The notes: a model not told the origin generated them from the sequence alone. A DNA stretch of 37,369 nt from Candidatus Omnitrophota bacterium (GCA_023248025.1 JAHFFI010000003.1:1-37369); one strand, 5' to 3'. Positions 2,696 to 12,498 are shown, numbered from the stretch's first letter. Translations and numbers: made by a program.

Positions 2696-3317
2696 CTAAT
2701 TTTTGCCGGATGCTGCGTACGTGCACGTCCACAGTCCTGTCGATCACAAAGGTCTGGGAGCCCCATGCGCCGTCCAGAAGCTTGTCACGCGAGAAAACTT
2801 TTCCTTTATTTTCCATGAGAAAAGCCAGAATATTGAATTCTATTTTTGTCAGGACAACGGGCTTATTGTCGACTTTGAGCTGCATGCGCTCTTTATCGAG
2901 GACGATGCCGTCTATGCGGATAATATTTGTTGATACGGCCGAAGTTTTCTGTCGCAGCAAGTTCTTGACCCTCGCCAGGAGCACTTTTATGCTGAACGGT
3001 TTAGGCACATAGTCAGAGGCCCCTATCTCAAGCCCCACGACCTGGTCCACTTCCGAGGACTTGGCTGTAAGCATAATGATGGGTATCGTCCGGGTTACCG
3101 GATCATTCTTTAGAAGTTTACAGACCTCGAGGCCGTCTATCCCGGGAAGCATGAGATCGAGAAGAATAAGCGCGGGTTTTTTCTGCTTAGCCAGTTCCAG
3201 GCCTTCCTCGCCCGTCTTGGCGGCTACAGTCTGGTATCCTTCTTTTTCAAGGTTATATTGGAGAAGTTTTAAAATATCTTTTTCGTCGTCAATGACGAGA
3301 ATCAGCGATTTGGCCAT
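2634..3317 (-). CDS. phoB: PhoB-family response regulator (REC + winged helix)
   Basis: ILVIDDEKDILKLL, LLDLMLPGIDGLEVC, MLTAKSSEVD, YVPKPFSIKVLLARV and C-terminal winged helix TVDVHVRSIRQKLG…VRGSGYRFE. Confidence 0.93.
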   Translation of the reverse strand: MAKSLILVIDDEKDILKLLQYNLEKEGYQTVAAKTGEEGLELAKQKKPALILLDLMLPGIDGLEVCKLLKNDPVTRTIPIIMLTAKSSEVDQVVGLEIGASDYVPKPFSIKVLLARVKNLLRQKTSAVSTNIIRIDGIVLDKERMQLKVDNKPVVLTKIEFNILAFLMENKGKVFSRDKLLDGAWGSQTFVIDRTVDVHVRSIRQKLGARRECLQTVRGSGYRFEDA

Positions 3318-4021
3318 TATTTCGGAGCTTTGACCCGACCGAGTATTTCCTTCACTTTATCCCGAATTTCGTGGTGTATCTCATCCACACCTTTACGGGC
3401 ATCCACAACTTCAAAACTGAATTCTTTTGAAAGCTTGTCGTATTCGGCAATCAGTAACGACTGGTAATTCACGAAGCTGTCGAAAAGGTCCTGCCCCATG
3501 TGCATGTCCATACCCGCTTCCCAATAATTCATGCCTCCCGTTTCGATCACACGCGGGATCAGTGTCTCAATATCCATTTTCATATAAATAACTACGTCCG
3601 GCACGAGCGCAAAGCCAAACACATCCCGTATCCATTTTTGGCTTGAATTTCTCACGACATCGCGCGCGAAAGCAGTATAAATGTACCGGTCAGCGATGAC
3701 GATGTGCCCGGATTTCAGAGCCGGGATGATCTGGTTCTCGAGCCGGTCTGCGAAGTCGGTCGCGTATAAAAGGGAAAAGGTCATGCGATCCATCATGGTC
3801 CCGGATTTGGCCATTTCGATGGATTTATGCATGAGGTTCGAGCGGGTCCACCCGGTCTCGACCACGGCGTAGCCCTGAACTTCAAGCCAATTTTTCAGAA
3901 GGTCTACCTGCGTCGATCGGCCGATACCGTCCGTGCCTTCGATGCAGATAAATTTACCCTTCAGCGTAAACGGCTTAAGATACGGTAAACCGTCGCCAAA
4001 AAACTTTGGGTCGCTTGGCAT
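3317..4021 (-). CDS. Thymidylate-kinase-like P-loop protein (paralogue 1, Walker A Lys replaced by Arg)
   Basis: FICIEGTDGIGRSTQVDLLKNWLE, DRYIYTAFARDVVR; similar along its length to the upstream gene 3975..4712. Confidence 0.8.
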   Translation of the reverse strand: MPSDPKFFGDGLPYLKPFTLKGKFICIEGTDGIGRSTQVDLLKNWLEVQGYAVVETGWTRSNLMHKSIEMAKSGTMMDRMTFSLLYATDFADRLENQIIPALKSGHIVIADRYIYTAFARDVVRNSSQKWIRDVFGFALVPDVVIYMKMDIETLIPRVIETGGMNYWEAGMDMHMGQDLFDSFVNYQSLLIAEYDKLSKEFSFEVVDARKGVDEIHHEIRDKVKEILGRVKAPK

Positions 4022-4712
4022 AAATGGTCCTCTTTTTAGAATATCCTTTTAATGCGCCCTTCATAACAATCTCGCGGACGATCTCCTGCTGATCATGGAT
4101 ATCCAATTCCGCGTCAATCTGGGAAAAATTAAACTCCTCGACCATTTTTTCATACTGATCAATGATCTTCGACTGGAAGTTCTTGAAAGACGTGATGATG
4201 TCTTTATCCTTGGCCGGCTCGACATCAAGCCCTGCCTCGTGGAATTTTATCTCGGCACGACCCGAAATGATGCGGTCACAGGCGGTTTGAATAGGCACGC
4301 GAAAATAAAAGCTGATATCCGGCTTTACAGAAAAGCTATAGAGATTGCGCACCCATTGCGGATGCACACCGCGCACCACGTCTCTGGCAAAAGCCGTGTA
4401 AGCGTAGCGATCAGCCAAGACGATCATTCCGGCCTTGAGTGGAGGAATGATTTGATAGTTGAGCCTGTCTGCAAAATCCGTAGCATGCAGCAGCGAAAAA
4501 GTGGTCGGGGTTAGAAGGTTTTTCTTTTTACCCTCTTTTGTGGTCTCTTTGACAAGCTCGGAGCTGTTCCATTCAGTAAAGAATATGGAAAAACCCTGAG
4601 ATTCGAGCCATTTCTTTAGAAGTGAAATCTGGGTGCTTTTTCCCGAACCATCGACACCTTCAACGATGATGAGTTTACCCGGATATTCGTGTTTTTTATC
4701 GAAAAGTCCCAT
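3975..4712 (-). CDS. Thymidylate-kinase-like P-loop kinase (paralogue 2, canonical Walker A)
   Basis: LIIVEGVDGSGKSTQISLLKKWLES, DRYAYTAFARDVVRG; overlaps start of paralogue 1. Confidence 0.85.
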   Translation of the reverse strand: MGLFDKKHEYPGKLIIVEGVDGSGKSTQISLLKKWLESQGFSIFFTEWNSSELVKETTKEGKKKNLLTPTTFSLLHATDFADRLNYQIIPPLKAGMIVLADRYAYTAFARDVVRGVHPQWVRNLYSFSVKPDISFYFRVPIQTACDRIISGRAEIKFHEAGLDVEPAKDKDIITSFKNFQSKIIDQYEKMVEEFNFSQIDAELDIHDQQEIVREIVMKGALKGYSKKRTIYAKRPKVFWRRFTVS

Positions 4713-6460: not shown

Positions 6461-6487
6461 TCAACCATCTGACAATGCCTTTAAATT

Positions 6488-6816
6488 AACCGACGGGTCC
6501 TGCCCACTCCCGAAGAACACCCTTAGCCAGGCCCCGGACCCCGGAAGTGGTCCTTTTGGTCGACGTATGGATTTCCCCTCCGAGGAAATCCACACTCCGT
6601 TAAAGTTTGCGCGTGTGTGAAAGTGGGTTTCCATGGCGCGCAAACTTCAAAGGCGCCCCAAAGGACCACTTCCGGGGTCCTATACCATTAGCTAATGAGT
6701 GTTCTATTAAAACCCAGAGAACCCGACGGGTGGCAAAGGACGAGGTCTATTTGCCCGGAGCCGCTAATAGACGGCGAGGACAAATAGACCTCGTCCTTTG
6801 ACAGGCCCCGTCGGTT
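6488..6816. repeat. Palindrome-rich intergenic repeat element, copy A (similar to copy B at ~12147-12498)
   Basis: Near-identical blocks shared with copy B (e.g. GGATTTCCCCTCCGAGGAAATC, GTGTGTGAAAGTGGGTTTCCATGG, CTATTTGCCCGGAGCCGCTAATAGACGGCGAG); ends AACCGACGGGTCCT / AGGCCCCGTCGGTT are 13/14 inverted repeats. Confidence 0.85.
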
Positions 6817-6849
6817 ACCTGGATTAATAGATCCAAATGAAGCACTTCG

Positions 6850-6879
6850 TTGACAGTGGGATAATACAATGGCTATACT
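6850..6879 (+). promoter_or_regulatory. Candidate sigma70-type promoter upstream of queD
   Basis: TTGACA (6850-6855), 18-bp spacer, TATACT (6874-6879); start codon 12 nt downstream. Confidence 0.45.
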
Positions 6880-6891
6880 TATAAGGAAATT

Positions 6892-7326
6892 ATGTACACC
6901 GTCACAAAACAAATTCATTTCTGCTATGGTCACCGCCTTCTGGACTATGACGGCAAATGTGCCCATCCCCACGGCCACAACGGCGTCATCGAGATTGAGC
7001 TGTCCACCAATGCCCTGGACAAGCGCGGCATGGTATACGATTTCGGAGATATCAAGGGCATCATACAGGAGTGGGTGGATAAAGCTCTCGACCACAAGAT
7101 GATTTTAAGGAAGGATGACCCGCTTGTCCTTATTTTTAGAAAAATAAAGGAGCCCTATTTCGTCATGAATGACAACCCTACGGCCGAGGCTTTGGCTAAA
7201 CTTATTTTTGATTACGCCGATTCCAAAAAACTCCCCATCTCAAAAGTGAAATTCTGGGAAACCCAGAGCTCTTTCGCCACTTACTCCGTTCCATCTCGCT
7301 CCATTTCAATAATGGGAAAAAATTAA
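6892..7326 (+). CDS. queD: 6-carboxytetrahydropterin synthase QueD / PTPS family
   Basis: MYTVTKQIHFCYGHRL…GKCAHPHGHNGVIEIEL (CxxxHGH motif), GMVYDFGDIKGIIQEWVDKALDHKMIL, NPTAEALAKLIF. Confidence 0.9.
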   Translation: MYTVTKQIHFCYGHRLLDYDGKCAHPHGHNGVIEIELSTNALDKRGMVYDFGDIKGIIQEWVDKALDHKMILRKDDPLVLIFRKIKEPYFVMNDNPTAEALAKLIFDYADSKKLPISKVKFWETQSSFATYSVPSRSISIMGKN

Positions 7327-7799
7327 CCGCCGTAATGCCAAGGCGTGTCGCCCATGACAAGCGGCGCTTCGTTTTTGAGTATCTCCGCTTCAACAACTTC
7401 ACCGATCACGATAGAATGATCTCCGGCCTCAAAAATATTTTTTAATTCACATTCCAGGAAATGAGTGGCCTGCTCCAGCACCGGCGCTCCCGTTTTACCG
7501 GGATGAAAAGCAACCTCACCGAAGCGATTGCCGCTGGCGGGGGTCGGTTTAAAAAACTGTTCCAGTATTTTTTTATCGGACTTGGCCAAAAAATTAACTG
7601 AAAATACTTTTCCTTTTTCTATCATTTCCAGAGAATGCGTTCCGTGGCGAACACCCAGCATCACACGCGGAGGTTTCAACGAACACTGTGAAAGCCAGCT
7701 TCCGGTAAATGCATGAAAAGCATCTTCGTTTCTTACGCCAATGACGTATAAGCCGTACGGAATAGTGCGTAAAATCGTTTTTTTAGACGCTTCGTTCAT
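7323..7799 (-). CDS. Flavin reductase family protein (FMN-binding split barrel)
   Basis: RTIPYGLYVIGVRNEDAFHAFTGSWLSQCSLKPPRVMLGVR…FSVNFLAK…VIGEVVEAEI. Confidence 0.85.
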   Translation of the reverse strand: MNEASKKTILRTIPYGLYVIGVRNEDAFHAFTGSWLSQCSLKPPRVMLGVRHGTHSLEMIEKGKVFSVNFLAKSDKKILEQFFKPTPASGNRFGEVAFHPGKTGAPVLEQATHFLECELKNIFEAGDHSIVIGEVVEAEILKNEAPLVMGDTPWHYGG

Positions 7800-8323
7800 T
7801 TGCCAAAAGCATTTTTTTGGGCCGGCTTCGTGGCAACGGCAAAGAGACCAAACAGCACGAATGAATAGAACAGGTCACCGGCGAGAGAATTTCGGAAAAA
7901 CGGAAGTGCCAGCCAGAAACATTGGCCAAGCCCTGCCCACGTTTTTGAATACATCGATTGAAATAGAAATACGCCGAGGTTCGTAACGATAAAAAATATG
8001 CTGGCGCCCGCGAGAGTTCCATAAAAAATTTTGCCCGGATTTAAATTATTTTTTATTCTTAAACCGATCAGGCTTACGAGAAAGAAACATCCCCAGGTCA
8101 AAATAAACAAATCGTGCGGACCGATCAAAATATCGCTTCCGATCATGAGTAGCAGCGGCACGGTCAATGCCAACGCGGCTGGAAACAAGCCGCCGGAAAA
8201 TAGAGCGATGGCGGTAATGGGCGTAAAATTGGATGGGTGCGGCAAAAGTCGCAGTGCCATTCCGGAGATAATCAGGAACAACGCGAACAACGTTTGCGAT
8301 CTATTTTCTGTTTTGAAGGTCAC
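7796..8323 (-). CDS. DUF6580-like integral membrane protein
   Basis: Multi-TM; LRLLPHPSNFTPITAIALFSGGLF…SDILIGPHDLFILTWGCFFLVSLIG…NLGVFLF. Confidence 0.7.
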   Translation of the reverse strand: MTFKTENRSQTLFALFLIISGMALRLLPHPSNFTPITAIALFSGGLFPAALALTVPLLLMIGSDILIGPHDLFILTWGCFFLVSLIGLRIKNNLNPGKIFYGTLAGASIFFIVTNLGVFLFQSMYSKTWAGLGQCFWLALPFFRNSLAGDLFYSFVLFGLFAVATKPAQKNAFGK

Positions 8324-8377
8324 GCTGTCTCCTGTTTGCCCGTATTATAAGGCTTTTGTACGTTTTCGTCTACGGTC

Positions 8378-8648
8378 ACTGAGGTTTCACTAATTAATGG
8401 GCACACTGGAAGCCCTCTTTTTGGCTGGATGCAAGGCGTGACGACGAAGGTGTGTCCTCTGCGACACATCAAGGAGGAACAACGCGGCAGACGGCCAAAA
8501 AGAGAGCTTCCCCGAAGGGGCTGGCCGCTTTTGGGCTGTGCCTGCGTCATTCGTCGTTGGCATAGTTAACACTATGCCTCCTCCTCTTTCCTTGTCTCGC
8601 TTCAAAATCAGCTCAGCCAGTGTGCCCATTAATTAGTGAAGCCTCAGT
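8378..8648. mobile_element. MITE-like non-coding element with ~32-bp terminal inverted repeats
   Basis: ACTGAGGTTTCACTAATTAATGGGCACACTGG versus the inverse of CCAGTGTGCCCATTAATTAGTGAAGCCTCAGT (1 mismatch); internal palindromes GGAAGCCCTCTTTTTGGC/GCCAAAAAGAGAGCTTCC and GCATAGTTAACACTATGC. Confidence 0.85.
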
Positions 8649-9381
8649 AGGTACAAAAAAGTTCGTTTCTGCGTGCGAATGACAATAAAAAATTCCGGCT
8701 ATAACTCATCTGACTATTGTAGCAGAGAAGTGCTTCATATTTTTTTTTACGCTCCGCCGGCGATAGGTGGACAGTGAGCCAGTTTTTTTTATTCGTCCAT
8801 TTTTTAGGCGGCATTAAAAATTCTTCCGGTTTGTATCCTTTTGGATGTGGCCAATGAGAACTGTGGATGAGATAGGACAATACCTTTGGGACGAAAGACC
8901 CCCCTCCTTTTTCCAGCGCCGCCTGTATAAAATAACCAGCCGCTTGGTGGTCGGAGTGACGGTCAAAACCAGCCGGTGCCAAAATAAGGGTTGGATCAAA
9001 AAGAGCCATTTTGGCGGCCAACCCGTCAACCACATGCGCTCTTTTTTTTCTCCATAGGGCCATGAGCCCCAGGTCCGGATGCCCCAGAAAAACAAGGTCG
9101 CCGCGTTTCACGTCAAGCCCCTTCATGGCTTGTGTCGCCTCATTTTTCCGTCCATCGGCCATTTTGGCGCGTATCTTCCTGGTCATAATTGGTTTTTTGA
9201 GGTGAAAAATCCCGGCCAGCATATTGCCGTCCCCATGCGTCAGATAGATCACTTTGATCCGAGCGCCAGCGACACGCGCTTTTTGTATAATGCCGGCAGC
9301 CGCAAGCGCTTCGTCATCAGGATGTGCCGCTACGATGAGAACACGATCATTTTTTCTAAATACGAAAGTAACAGAGGTCAT
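8644..9381 (-). CDS. PIG-L family deacetylase
   Basis: VLIVAAHPDDEALAAAGIIQKARVAG, YLTHGDGN, FDRHSDHQAAGYFIQ. Confidence 0.92.
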   Translation of the reverse strand: MTSVTFVFRKNDRVLIVAAHPDDEALAAAGIIQKARVAGARIKVIYLTHGDGNMLAGIFHLKKPIMTRKIRAKMADGRKNEATQAMKGLDVKRGDLVFLGHPDLGLMALWRKKRAHVVDGLAAKMALFDPTLILAPAGFDRHSDHQAAGYFIQAALEKGGGSFVPKVLSYLIHSSHWPHPKGYKPEEFLMPPKKWTNKKNWLTVHLSPAERKKKYEALLCYNSQMSYSRNFLLSFARRNELFCTY

Positions 9382-11015
9382 AAAGTGGGCGTTCTCTGAA
9401 GCTTAATCAACACTCTAGTCGGGTGCTCGTGGAGTATTTCGATGCGGAAACGTGAATCTAATATCCTTTTCAAAAAATTCAGTTCTTTTAGCTTTAAAAA
9501 ACAAAAAAGTGGATATTCTTTTTGAGGGATCGCAAGAAAAGCCGTCTGATCGGAATAGATGGGAATGGCATGCCGGGTATAGAATGCACGGCGGCCGTTC
9601 TCTGAGACGACGGCTGCGCGGCTTTGACCGGAATAATAAGAAACGCCTCGCACATAGATTTTACTAGCCGCGATCGTAGTCCCGCCGGAGCTACGTGCGT
9701 CCTCGTTGTACCACTCAACCCATTTTCGGGAGGAAAAAATGACATCCACCATGGGCAGCATCCACGAATAGGCCAGCACCGCAAACCCCGCCATCATGAC
9801 CGTAAGACAGGCGATCATCACTCTGAGATGGCGTCGCCACAAACTAATAAAAGCCGCCCAGCTCAAAGGCACGAGCACACACCCGATCACAATAACCGGC
9901 CAAAAAACTTCAGGGGCACTTTTTTGGCTGTAAAGAAACGCCGAAACAACCAGTGCCGGCGGAAACACCCCCCAGACGGCAATGGCCCAAGGCCAGAGAG
10001 ACGCTTTTATTTTAGCGCCCATAGAAACGGCCCTGTAAAAACGCGCTCCCCACGCAGCCATCAAAATAGCCAGGACCGGATAAAGCGGAAACGTGTAACT
10101 CAGCAGTTTAGATTTAGCCATCATAAAAAACAGAAGTGGGAGCCAGAATCCCAGGGAGAGCTCGAAAAAAATTTTCTGAATACATGAACGGTTCCTTATG
10201 GCCTGCCGGATACCGTAAAAAAGCGTGGGTAAAATAAAAACACTCCACGGAAAAAATCCGCCCAGAAATCCCGCAGGATAAAAAAAGATACGGTCCATGC
10301 CCCTGTGCTCGGCAATAAAAAAACGCCGCACATTTTCATGGATAAAAAAATCATACAAAAAAGCTGTACCAAACCGCCAAACCATGTAGCCATACCACGG
10401 AACTGCCGTCAAAAAAAATACCCACAGTCCTTTAAAACGCTCCGTGCTTTTTTTTGTGAACATACTCATAAAAGGAATCATAAAACCCAACGGACCTTTG
10501 GTCAGAGACCCCAGCGCAGAAAAGAAAAAAGCGGCGCGTTCGCGGCCGAGACTCGAGAAGAACCAAGTGGCCGTCACAAAAAAACAAAACACCATGTCGG
10601 TCAGGACAACTCGCGTCATCACCACATATTCTGCCGCTGTGGCGAGGATAAGCGCCGCCAGGAAAGAGATCTGCTTATTACGAAAAAGTACTTGAGCCCA
10701 AGCATAGGTGAGAAATACCGTGATAAATCCGGCTAGGCACGGAGCCAGCCTTGCGGACCATTCGTGAAATCCGAAAGTTTTAAAACTGACCATTTCAAGC
10801 CAGTAAAAAAATATGGGTTTCTCAAACTGGGGTTCGCCGAATAAGGTTGGTACAAGCCAATTACCGGCAGTGAGCATCTCTTTGGACGTCAGGGCATAAA
10901 ACGGCTCATCGGGATCAAGCAGGCCATACGCGCCCAGTTTAAAGGCAAACAATCCTCCGCACAAAACGGCGAGAAATAATAGGGGTTTCCGGTGCTCTTT
11001 AAGTGCTGAAAGCAT
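9378..11015 (-). CDS. Glycosyltransferase family 39 (ArnT/PMT-like) membrane protein
   Basis: LLDPDEPFYALTSKEMLTAGNWLVPTLFGEPQFEKPIFFYWLEMVSFKTFGFHEWSARLAP, many TM segments, long C-terminal soluble region. Confidence 0.88.
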   Translation of the reverse strand: MLSALKEHRKPLLFLAVLCGGLFAFKLGAYGLLDPDEPFYALTSKEMLTAGNWLVPTLFGEPQFEKPIFFYWLEMVSFKTFGFHEWSARLAPCLAGFITVFLTYAWAQVLFRNKQISFLAALILATAAEYVVMTRVVLTDMVFCFFVTATWFFSSLGRERAAFFFSALGSLTKGPLGFMIPFMSMFTKKSTERFKGLWVFFLTAVPWYGYMVWRFGTAFLYDFFIHENVRRFFIAEHRGMDRIFFYPAGFLGGFFPWSVFILPTLFYGIRQAIRNRSCIQKIFFELSLGFWLPLLFFMMAKSKLLSYTFPLYPVLAILMAAWGARFYRAVSMGAKIKASLWPWAIAVWGVFPPALVVSAFLYSQKSAPEVFWPVIVIGCVLVPLSWAAFISLWRRHLRVMIACLTVMMAGFAVLAYSWMLPMVDVIFSSRKWVEWYNEDARSSGGTTIAASKIYVRGVSYYSGQSRAAVVSENGRRAFYTRHAIPIYSDQTAFLAIPQKEYPLFCFLKLKELNFLKRILDSRFRIEILHEHPTRVLIKLQRTPTL

Positions 11016-11046
11016 AGACTTGGATTATACGTGGTATCATAATCTC

Positions 11047-12108
11047 ATGCCATTCCAAAACGCGCTCCTGAAATGGTTCCAAAAAAACCAGCGCCCCCTG
11101 CCCTGGCGGAAGCATTACCGTCCTTATGAAGTTTGGATCTCAGAAGTGATGCTCCAACAAACACAGGTCGAGACGGCACTTCCCTTTTATGAGCGCTGGC
11201 TCAAGACTTTTCCGGATATAAAATCCCTTGCGGCCACCGATGAAAAGAAAGTGTTAAAGCTTTGGGAGGGCTTAGGCTACTATTCACGCGCTCGAAACTT
11301 GCATCACACTGCTAAATTAATCGTTAAAAAATTTAAAGGCAAATTTCCCTCGGATTTTAATTCGATCCTTTCCTTAAAAGGGATCGGTCGCTATTCGGCA
11401 GGCGCCATCGCGTCCATCGCTTTCAATCAAGAGCGGCCGATAGTGGACGGTAATGTCCTACGCGTCCTTTCGCGCATTTACGCGATCGATAAACCCATTG
11501 ACGTACCGGCTAACCGCGAGATTTTTTGGGAATTGCAGGAAAAATTGATCCCTAAAGGACAGGCGCGAAATTTTAATCAGGCGCTGATGGAACTTGGCGC
11601 GCTTGTTTGCGCTAAAAATGATCCCGCCTGTCTTATCTGTCCCATCCGCTCGTTCTGTAAAGCAACTACATTAAAAAATCCTGAGGCATTTCCGACGAAA
11701 CAAAATAAAAAACAAATGGTTCGCGTCACGGCAGCTGCGGTGATTTTGCGGCAAAACGGAAAGTTTTTAATCGAGCGGCGGCCTGTGGGAAAAATCATGG
11801 GAGGACTGTGGGAATTCCCGGAATGGAAACTTGTTAAAAATAAAAAAATAGGTCCTCCGGAAATTCTAACTAAGACTGAAAAACTGGTCTCAGAAAAATT
11901 CAGTTACAAGTCCGGAGTTCTGAAACCTCTAGCCGTCATAAAGCGTAATTACACCCATCACCTGGAAGCGCTTCACGTGTTTGAAACAGTGGCGCCGCTC
12001 ATCAAACTGCCGCAGGATTCATGGCAACGCGCCTGGGTGAGCCAAAAAAATATTACGCAGTATCCCTTCTCCGCCGCCCACGCCAAAATCGCAAAATTAA
12101 TTCAATAA
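11047..12108 (+). CDS. mutY: A/G-specific adenine glycosylase MutY
   Basis: LPWRKHYRPYEVWISEVMLQQTQVETALPFYERW, GLGYYSRARNL, LKGIGRYSAGAIASIAF, Fe-S cysteines CAKNDPACLICPIRSFC, C-terminal NUDIX-like region. ORF extends to TTG at 11020; ATG at 11047 preferred. Confidence 0.93.
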   Translation: MPFQNALLKWFQKNQRPLPWRKHYRPYEVWISEVMLQQTQVETALPFYERWLKTFPDIKSLAATDEKKVLKLWEGLGYYSRARNLHHTAKLIVKKFKGKFPSDFNSILSLKGIGRYSAGAIASIAFNQERPIVDGNVLRVLSRIYAIDKPIDVPANREIFWELQEKLIPKGQARNFNQALMELGALVCAKNDPACLICPIRSFCKATTLKNPEAFPTKQNKKQMVRVTAAAVILRQNGKFLIERRPVGKIMGGLWEFPEWKLVKNKKIGPPEILTKTEKLVSEKFSYKSGVLKPLAVIKRNYTHHLEALHVFETVAPLIKLPQDSWQRAWVSQKNITQYPFSAAHAKIAKLIQ

Positions 12109-12146
12109 TCATAACCTCCAGATAGTCCCGCCAGCTCTCGAGCATA

Positions 12147-12498
12147 CCCATTGCTAGGTCCCGGACCCCGGAAGTGGCCCTTGGGGTCAGCGCTCGGATT
12201 TCCCCTCCGAGGAAATCTGTCGCTCGATTGTCGTTTGCTCGTGTGTGAAAGTGGGTTTCCATGGCTCGCAAACGACAAACGCGCCCCCAAGGGCCACTTC
12301 CGGGGTCCTAGACCATTCGCTAATGAGAGTTCTATTAAAACAAAGAGAACCCGACGGGTGGCAAAGGGCGAGGTCTATTTGCCCGGAGCCGCTAATAGAC
12401 GGCGAGTCCGCCAGAGGACGGATCCGTCCACAAATCGCTCGTGCGATTTGATGGCGGAGACAAATAGACCTTCCCCTTCGACAGGCCCTGCCGGTTAC
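12147..12498. repeat. Palindrome-rich intergenic repeat element, copy B, with a 52-bp insertion relative to copy A
   Basis: Same block order as copy A; perfect 24-bp arms GGACCCCGGAAGTGGCCCTTGGGG / CCCCAAGGGCCACTTCCGGGGTCC; insertion at 12407-12458. Confidence 0.85.

Follow-up and report, generated by a model that had tools for sequence, protein, structure and literature searches.

Two long palindromic stretches in the genome of a Candidatus Omnitrophota bacterium raise the question of what kind of element they represent. Both lie in the window, that is, the whole 37,369-nt stretch of DNA that was analysed, on contig C2 of a 1.46-Mb, 152-contig Omnitrophota-type MAG. The first-pass annotation had named three possibilities: a non-autonomous mobile element, a structured 3' UTR or non-coding RNA, and a DNA architectural site.

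A repeat search and an alignment confirmed the two copies and the identical order of their hairpins, and the covarying arm pairs described earlier were exact when the sequence was read again. Copy A (6487-6818, minus strand) was delimited by an inverted-repeat search, BLASTN against its own genome and covariance models. It is a composite of a hairpin H1, a linker and a hairpin H2, with a 16-nt outer inverted repeat (6487-6502 and 6802-6817). The strand assigned to the element here and below is the one whose fold is under selection in the wobble tests. H1 (6536-6680, minus strand) is a three-way-junction hairpin of about 146 nt that matched the covariance model R3 with 111 bits (E 3.2e-23) and shows covariation in homologues. 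Its outer stem P1, with arms at about 6536-6556 and 6660-6680, closes the junction. Two sub-hairpins were found as inverted repeats within it: P2 (6565-6595, minus strand) has the loop CCCCNSCGAGG (plus-strand reading), which is conserved across phyla, and P3 (6597-6653, minus strand) has an internal loop that covaries with the P2 loop and reads CATGG in copy A (consensus CATGS). On the minus strand the H1 internal loops are GA/GA. H2 (6722-6818, minus strand) is a hairpin of about 97 nt with a conserved inner loop and matched the covariance model R1 with 118.3 bits.

Copy B (12125-12498, minus strand) was identified by BLASTN, alignment with copy A and covariance models. Its H1 is found at 12163-12308 (minus strand; R3, 107.1 bits) and its H2 at 12350-12498 (minus strand; R1, 78.2 bits). 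In the alignment with copy A, the tip of this H2 is interrupted by a nested palindromic insert of 52 nt (12407-12458, no strand assigned), which recurs in about nine further H2 copies of the genome (L012, L015, L017, L018, L020, L021, L024, L025 and L030). Compared with dinucleotide shuffles, folding gave z scores of -12.4 for copy A and -9.4 for copy B. When the ORFs of the window were inspected by eye, no transposase was seen, as had been annotated. The window contains another long palindromic element at 8375-8655, with the ends CACTGAGG...CACTGG and CCAGTG...CCTCAGT and three further genome copies on contigs C127, C94 and C13. By sequence inspection, two adjacent thymidylate-kinase-like genes are located on the minus strand at 3317-4712.

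The description as a two-copy element did not hold. When copy A was compared with its own genome by BLASTN, 144 HSPs at about 45 places were obtained, and the covariance models located H1 at 40 places (R3) and H2 at about 80 (R1). Copies within one genome are related, so such counts are not independent events. The H1 and H2 modules combine in mosaic arrangements in this genome, and the arm variants of H2 are usually swapped as matched pairs. Since the arms are mismatched in some copies (L013 and L016), either the copies recombine with one another or the assembly contains chimeras. Part of the mosaicism may be short-read assembly chimerism; most of the genomes studied are MAGs, in which contigs break within copies. 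In one H1 (L019:2346-2490) the fold is retained and the stems are largely different.

Homologues outside this genome could be reached only by a structure-based search. When 59 class genomes were searched with copy A by BLASTN, the own genome alone gave a match. With the H1 covariance model, full-length matches were obtained in at least 54 of 384 class genomes, own included; this is a lower bound, since eight candidates were scored per genome. The best foreign E-value was 2.8e-12, covariance-model E-values being rough. H2 homologues were present in 17 of 292 class genomes, again including the own genome. An exact H1 pattern was found in 109 stretches of GTDB genomes, nearly all in MAGs, and the record titles named Omnitrophota, Auribacterota, WOR-3/Stahlbacteria, Aminicenantes, several Patescibacteria groups, Deltaproteobacteria and Actinobacteria. 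Whole-genome covariance-model counts ranged from 1 to 53 H1 copies per carrier genome. A Patescibacteria single-cell genome (AH-259-L07, which carries no MAG label) and a WOR-3 MAG contain copies with 82% identity across 159 nt; at the element edges the similarity breaks off. Because of this identity and its limits, the sequences suggest that H1 has spread horizontally between phyla. Copies can also persist, since two related genomes have one copy between the same genes. H2-like starts (GCGGGTGRC) were observed after H1 in the right flanks of L279, L288 and L289 (Auribacterota) and of the G382 loci L314-L323. As such starts trail H1 in other lineages, the H1-H2 order may be old.

The element matches no RNA or repeat family that was searched. 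With the curated Rfam thresholds, the window and 17 loci with homologues gave no match to the element. The single, unrelated hit was to 6S RNA, just over the threshold, at L086:2971-3128 (G223) near an H1 copy. Searches of phages, plasmids and viral contigs found no element, a literature search found no description of one, and a survey of the Omnitrophota does not mention repeats (PMC10066038).

The conservation of the fold was analysed in 60 foreign H1 copies. Both-sided changes occurred at 47 of 49 pairs, and 92.1% of the cells were paired compared with 57.9% after shuffling. The covariation score for the 60 homologues was 0.708, against 0.163 when shuffled and at most 0.148 when slid. The sequences had been aligned to fit the structure, but these margins are very wide. 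The case that the annotation had named as refuting it, only two copies and no covariation above background, did not arise: the copies are many and the covariation is strong. In addition, the P2 loop and the CATGS segment of P3 carry complementary bases (C with G, or G with C) in 139 of 141 homologues, namely 81 of 81 in the GTDB set, where the search pattern left all four combinations open, and 58 of 60 in the class set after inspection. Ten C/C combinations from an early regex turned out to be regex artefacts when the search was tightened and the exceptions were inspected. Since the C/G swap is so consistent, a tertiary contact between the P2 loop and the P3 internal loop is suggested.

The stems can pair on either strand, so G-U wobbles were used to tell which strand is selected. 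A first test used wobble-allowing folds, which are biased toward the strand that is folded, and was replaced by wobble-free and within-genome tests. With wobble-free folding, isolated single mismatches were minus-strand G-U rather than plus-strand G-U by 44:6 in the class set and by 50:5 in the GTDB set, adding up to 94:11 wobble-type mismatches overall. The within-genome test, which needs no fold prediction, was done with the outer stems of 20 copies in one Auribacterota genome. Here, 347 Watson-Crick pairs, 35 minus-strand wobbles and 0 plus-strand wobbles were counted, with Watson-Crick double changes in 19 of 20 outer-stem columns. Between these copies the outer arms are 60% identical and the cores 85%. 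The H2 homologues favour the same minus strand by 9:2. A fixed-column wobble count on the alignment A5 was balanced (61:58, and 44:48). We put this down, without a check of each column, to positions at the helix ends whose alignment followed the plus orientation, and the wobble-free and within-genome tests supersede this count as well. We conclude that the selected form is one single strand, the minus strand of the window.

These results also bear on how the pairing is maintained, for which either selection or hairpin-templated repair had been proposed. Functionless palindromes kept perfect by templated repair and gene conversion would have arms that are near-perfect within each copy and different between copies, as is observed. 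However, templated repair treats both strands alike, whereas the residual mismatches are one-strand wobbles (94:11 and 35:0), and the loops and the loop-loop pair are conserved as well. Symmetric templated repair cannot account for the wobble asymmetry and the consistent loop pair, and we regard functionless palindromes as a most improbable explanation. Selection is strongly supported by the covariation and the stem test; repair alone is rejected.

Evidence for movement was obtained in the Aminicenantes genome CSMAG_2626. A 21-nt terminal repeat had 112 matches there and the reversed control pattern 0. The repeats sit in inverted pairs and enclose elements whose length ranges from 69 to about 390 nt; the interiors vary, and H1 was the commonest among those examined. 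Direct repeats at the element ends included GTCCTATGTGT, CTCCATGAAAG, CAACGATTA and others, and a direct-repeat score of at least 9 was reached by 3 of 17 copies compared with 0 of 272 mispaired controls. In G123, copy L093 carries a direct repeat of 19 nt and copy L110 one of 15 nt, and the two have ends in common. Long flanking repeats were in excess in larger copy sets. Clear direct repeats are confined to a few lineages, and in the own genome none exceeded the control; nor did an empty site turn up. The longest CSMAG_2626 interval with inverted ends (1,341 bp) proved to be two elements around a host gene and no autonomous transposon, in a search by shared terminal repeats that covered this one genome. 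Taken together, the target-site-like direct repeats, the terminal inverted repeats and the cross-phylum identity that stops at the ends strongly support movement, and of the three initial options the non-autonomous mobile element fits best. Among the Aminicenantes loci of G384 (L333:181-412, L336, L350 and L351), H1-type terminal repeats were also seen around other structured interiors of the GGGGCGGTACCCGGCGCGGAG type and in minimal versions of 69-71 nt.

Direct repeats of about 9-19 nt together with an RNA-like fold would fit a SINE-like retroposed RNA, that is, a folded RNA that is reverse transcribed and inserted with direct repeats of variable length. A reverse transcriptase is not a requirement, since no RVT_1 gene was present in 16 of 24 carrier genomes. 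These include the own genome, G384 and G385, which have the most copies, and the chromosome-level genomes G388 and G399. We therefore consider retroposition very improbable.

The genomic context was examined with ORF-based gene calls. Of the copies between tandem genes, 64 had the folded strand antisense to both neighbours and 28 had it in the sense direction, and the median distance from a copy to the gene on its plus-strand 5' side was 40-75 nt. With the minus strand folded and mostly antisense in such pairs, a 3' UTR RNA on the plus strand is not the form under selection. No meaningful recurrent gene families were found near 81 copies. A structured non-coding RNA could instead be made from the window's minus strand, either as a mobile RNA module or as a multi-copy host regulatory RNA. 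Structured RNAs typically have the tandem G.A internal loops, the conserved and contacting loops and the G-U tolerance seen here, and the helices covary on one strand. However, the end arms vary freely between copies, leaving no fixed terminal sequence for a promoter, and Rfam gave no match. The orientation bias of the tandem pairs, in which host transcription would mostly run opposite, is mild counter-evidence. We judge such an RNA to be rather unlikely.

REPs are dispersed intergenic palindromes of 20-40 bp that lie mostly downstream of genes and are recognised as single-stranded DNA, the CGTC-tagged REPs being without a known transposase (PMC3733652, PMC2817692). Like REPs and BIMEs, the element is dispersed, palindromic, intergenic, mostly 3' of genes and found in composite arrangements. 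It could thus be a REP-type repeat moved by resident Y1 (RAYT) transposases, which work by single-strand recognition (PMC3733652). Two RAYT-type Y1 genes were detected in the own genome, L048:1237-1869 on contig C121 and L049 on contig C39. The latter lies at a contig edge. The former, the only one here with both flanks sequenced, sits between copies of a different, REP-like palindrome, GTGCCAGAGGGGTC(A/T)GACCCCTCTGGCAC. One copy of that palindrome was also seen beside the H1 element in L012. Y1 genes do not track H1 and are no obligatory partner, as they are equally frequent in carriers (44 of 54) and in other genomes (250 of 330). Unlike a single 20-40 bp palindrome with a GTAG or CGTC tag, H1 has three helices around a three-way junction, about 146 nt, a loop contact and cross-phylum conservation, and the one RAYT gene with both flanks sequenced is not bordered by it. 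A RAYT-driven REP is thus improbable, and neither an adjacent gene, a reverse transcriptase nor a Y1 transposase accounts for the element.

MITEs (PMC3733652) and the mosaic TIMEs (PMC4133298) are similar in that they are short, gene-less, mosaic and of high copy number, with terminal inverted repeats and direct repeats. Terminal inverted repeats are present here as the 21-nt repeat of the Aminicenantes and the 16-nt outer repeat of copy A, and target-site duplications in CSMAG_2626 and G123, whereas none was detected in the genome of the window. A search for a parent transposon, which covered one genome, found none. A MITE interior, however, is not expected to be conserved in its fold across phyla with a one-strand wobble bias. 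H1 may be a passenger within otherwise ordinary MITE-like elements.

In integrons, the attC strand that folds is the one antisense to the gene upstream, whose stop codon lies just before the site, and the structure is kept while the sequence varies. The element resembles attC in all of these respects. The fold of attC is one imperfect hairpin and its recombination leaves no direct repeats. By this general description H1 is set apart, with its three-way junction, its direct repeats and no cassette arrays seen. HEARO and OMEGA RNAs, and other large bacterial Rfam RNAs, are large, multi-branched and tied to mobile DNA. The element shares the size, the branching and the association with mobile DNA, but not an Rfam model or a neighbouring gene family. 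The double-hairpin elements of fungal mitochondria are mobile hairpins in which changes in the stems are compensated and the loops stay constant, as seen here. They are smaller, organellar and narrow in distribution, whereas the present element is larger and has a wide bacterial range.

For an element that is dispersed, built of mosaic modules, present in several phyla and conserved in the fold of one strand, we favour as the probable explanation a non-autonomous mobile element that is recognised as a folded single strand. Palindromic modules would be assembled inside lineage-specific terminal inverted repeats, and the central module H1 would have to fold as the minus single strand with its three-way junction, G.A-rich internal loops and loop contact. 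A putative recombinase acting in trans would recognise this folded strand. Each lineage would retain a core sequence of its own, which may be matched to its partner enzyme, while the outer stem would drift and remain paired. We lean, at somewhat less than even confidence, to recognition as exposed single-stranded DNA because of the attC-like geometry and since no fixed terminal sequence could be a promoter. Recognition as RNA appears less likely and is rather doubtful, though kept in play by the RNA-like build. Tentatively, the element may belong to a class of mobile elements not described before, which crosses phyla and is recognised by the fold and the loop contact of one strand, DNA or RNA, the sequence being free wherever fold, loops and contact are retained.

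To our knowledge, the main examples of bacterial repeats recognised by structure are short REP hairpins and the attC sites of integrons. The H1 element is built like a large structured RNA, numbers as many as about 50 copies in one genome and seems to pass between phyla. Its carriers are uncultivated, often small-genomed bacteria of the Omnitrophota, Patescibacteria, Aminicenantes, Auribacterota and WOR-3. With a covariance model it can be annotated at once, and it raises the testable question of which protein reads the H1 fold, as DNA or RNA.
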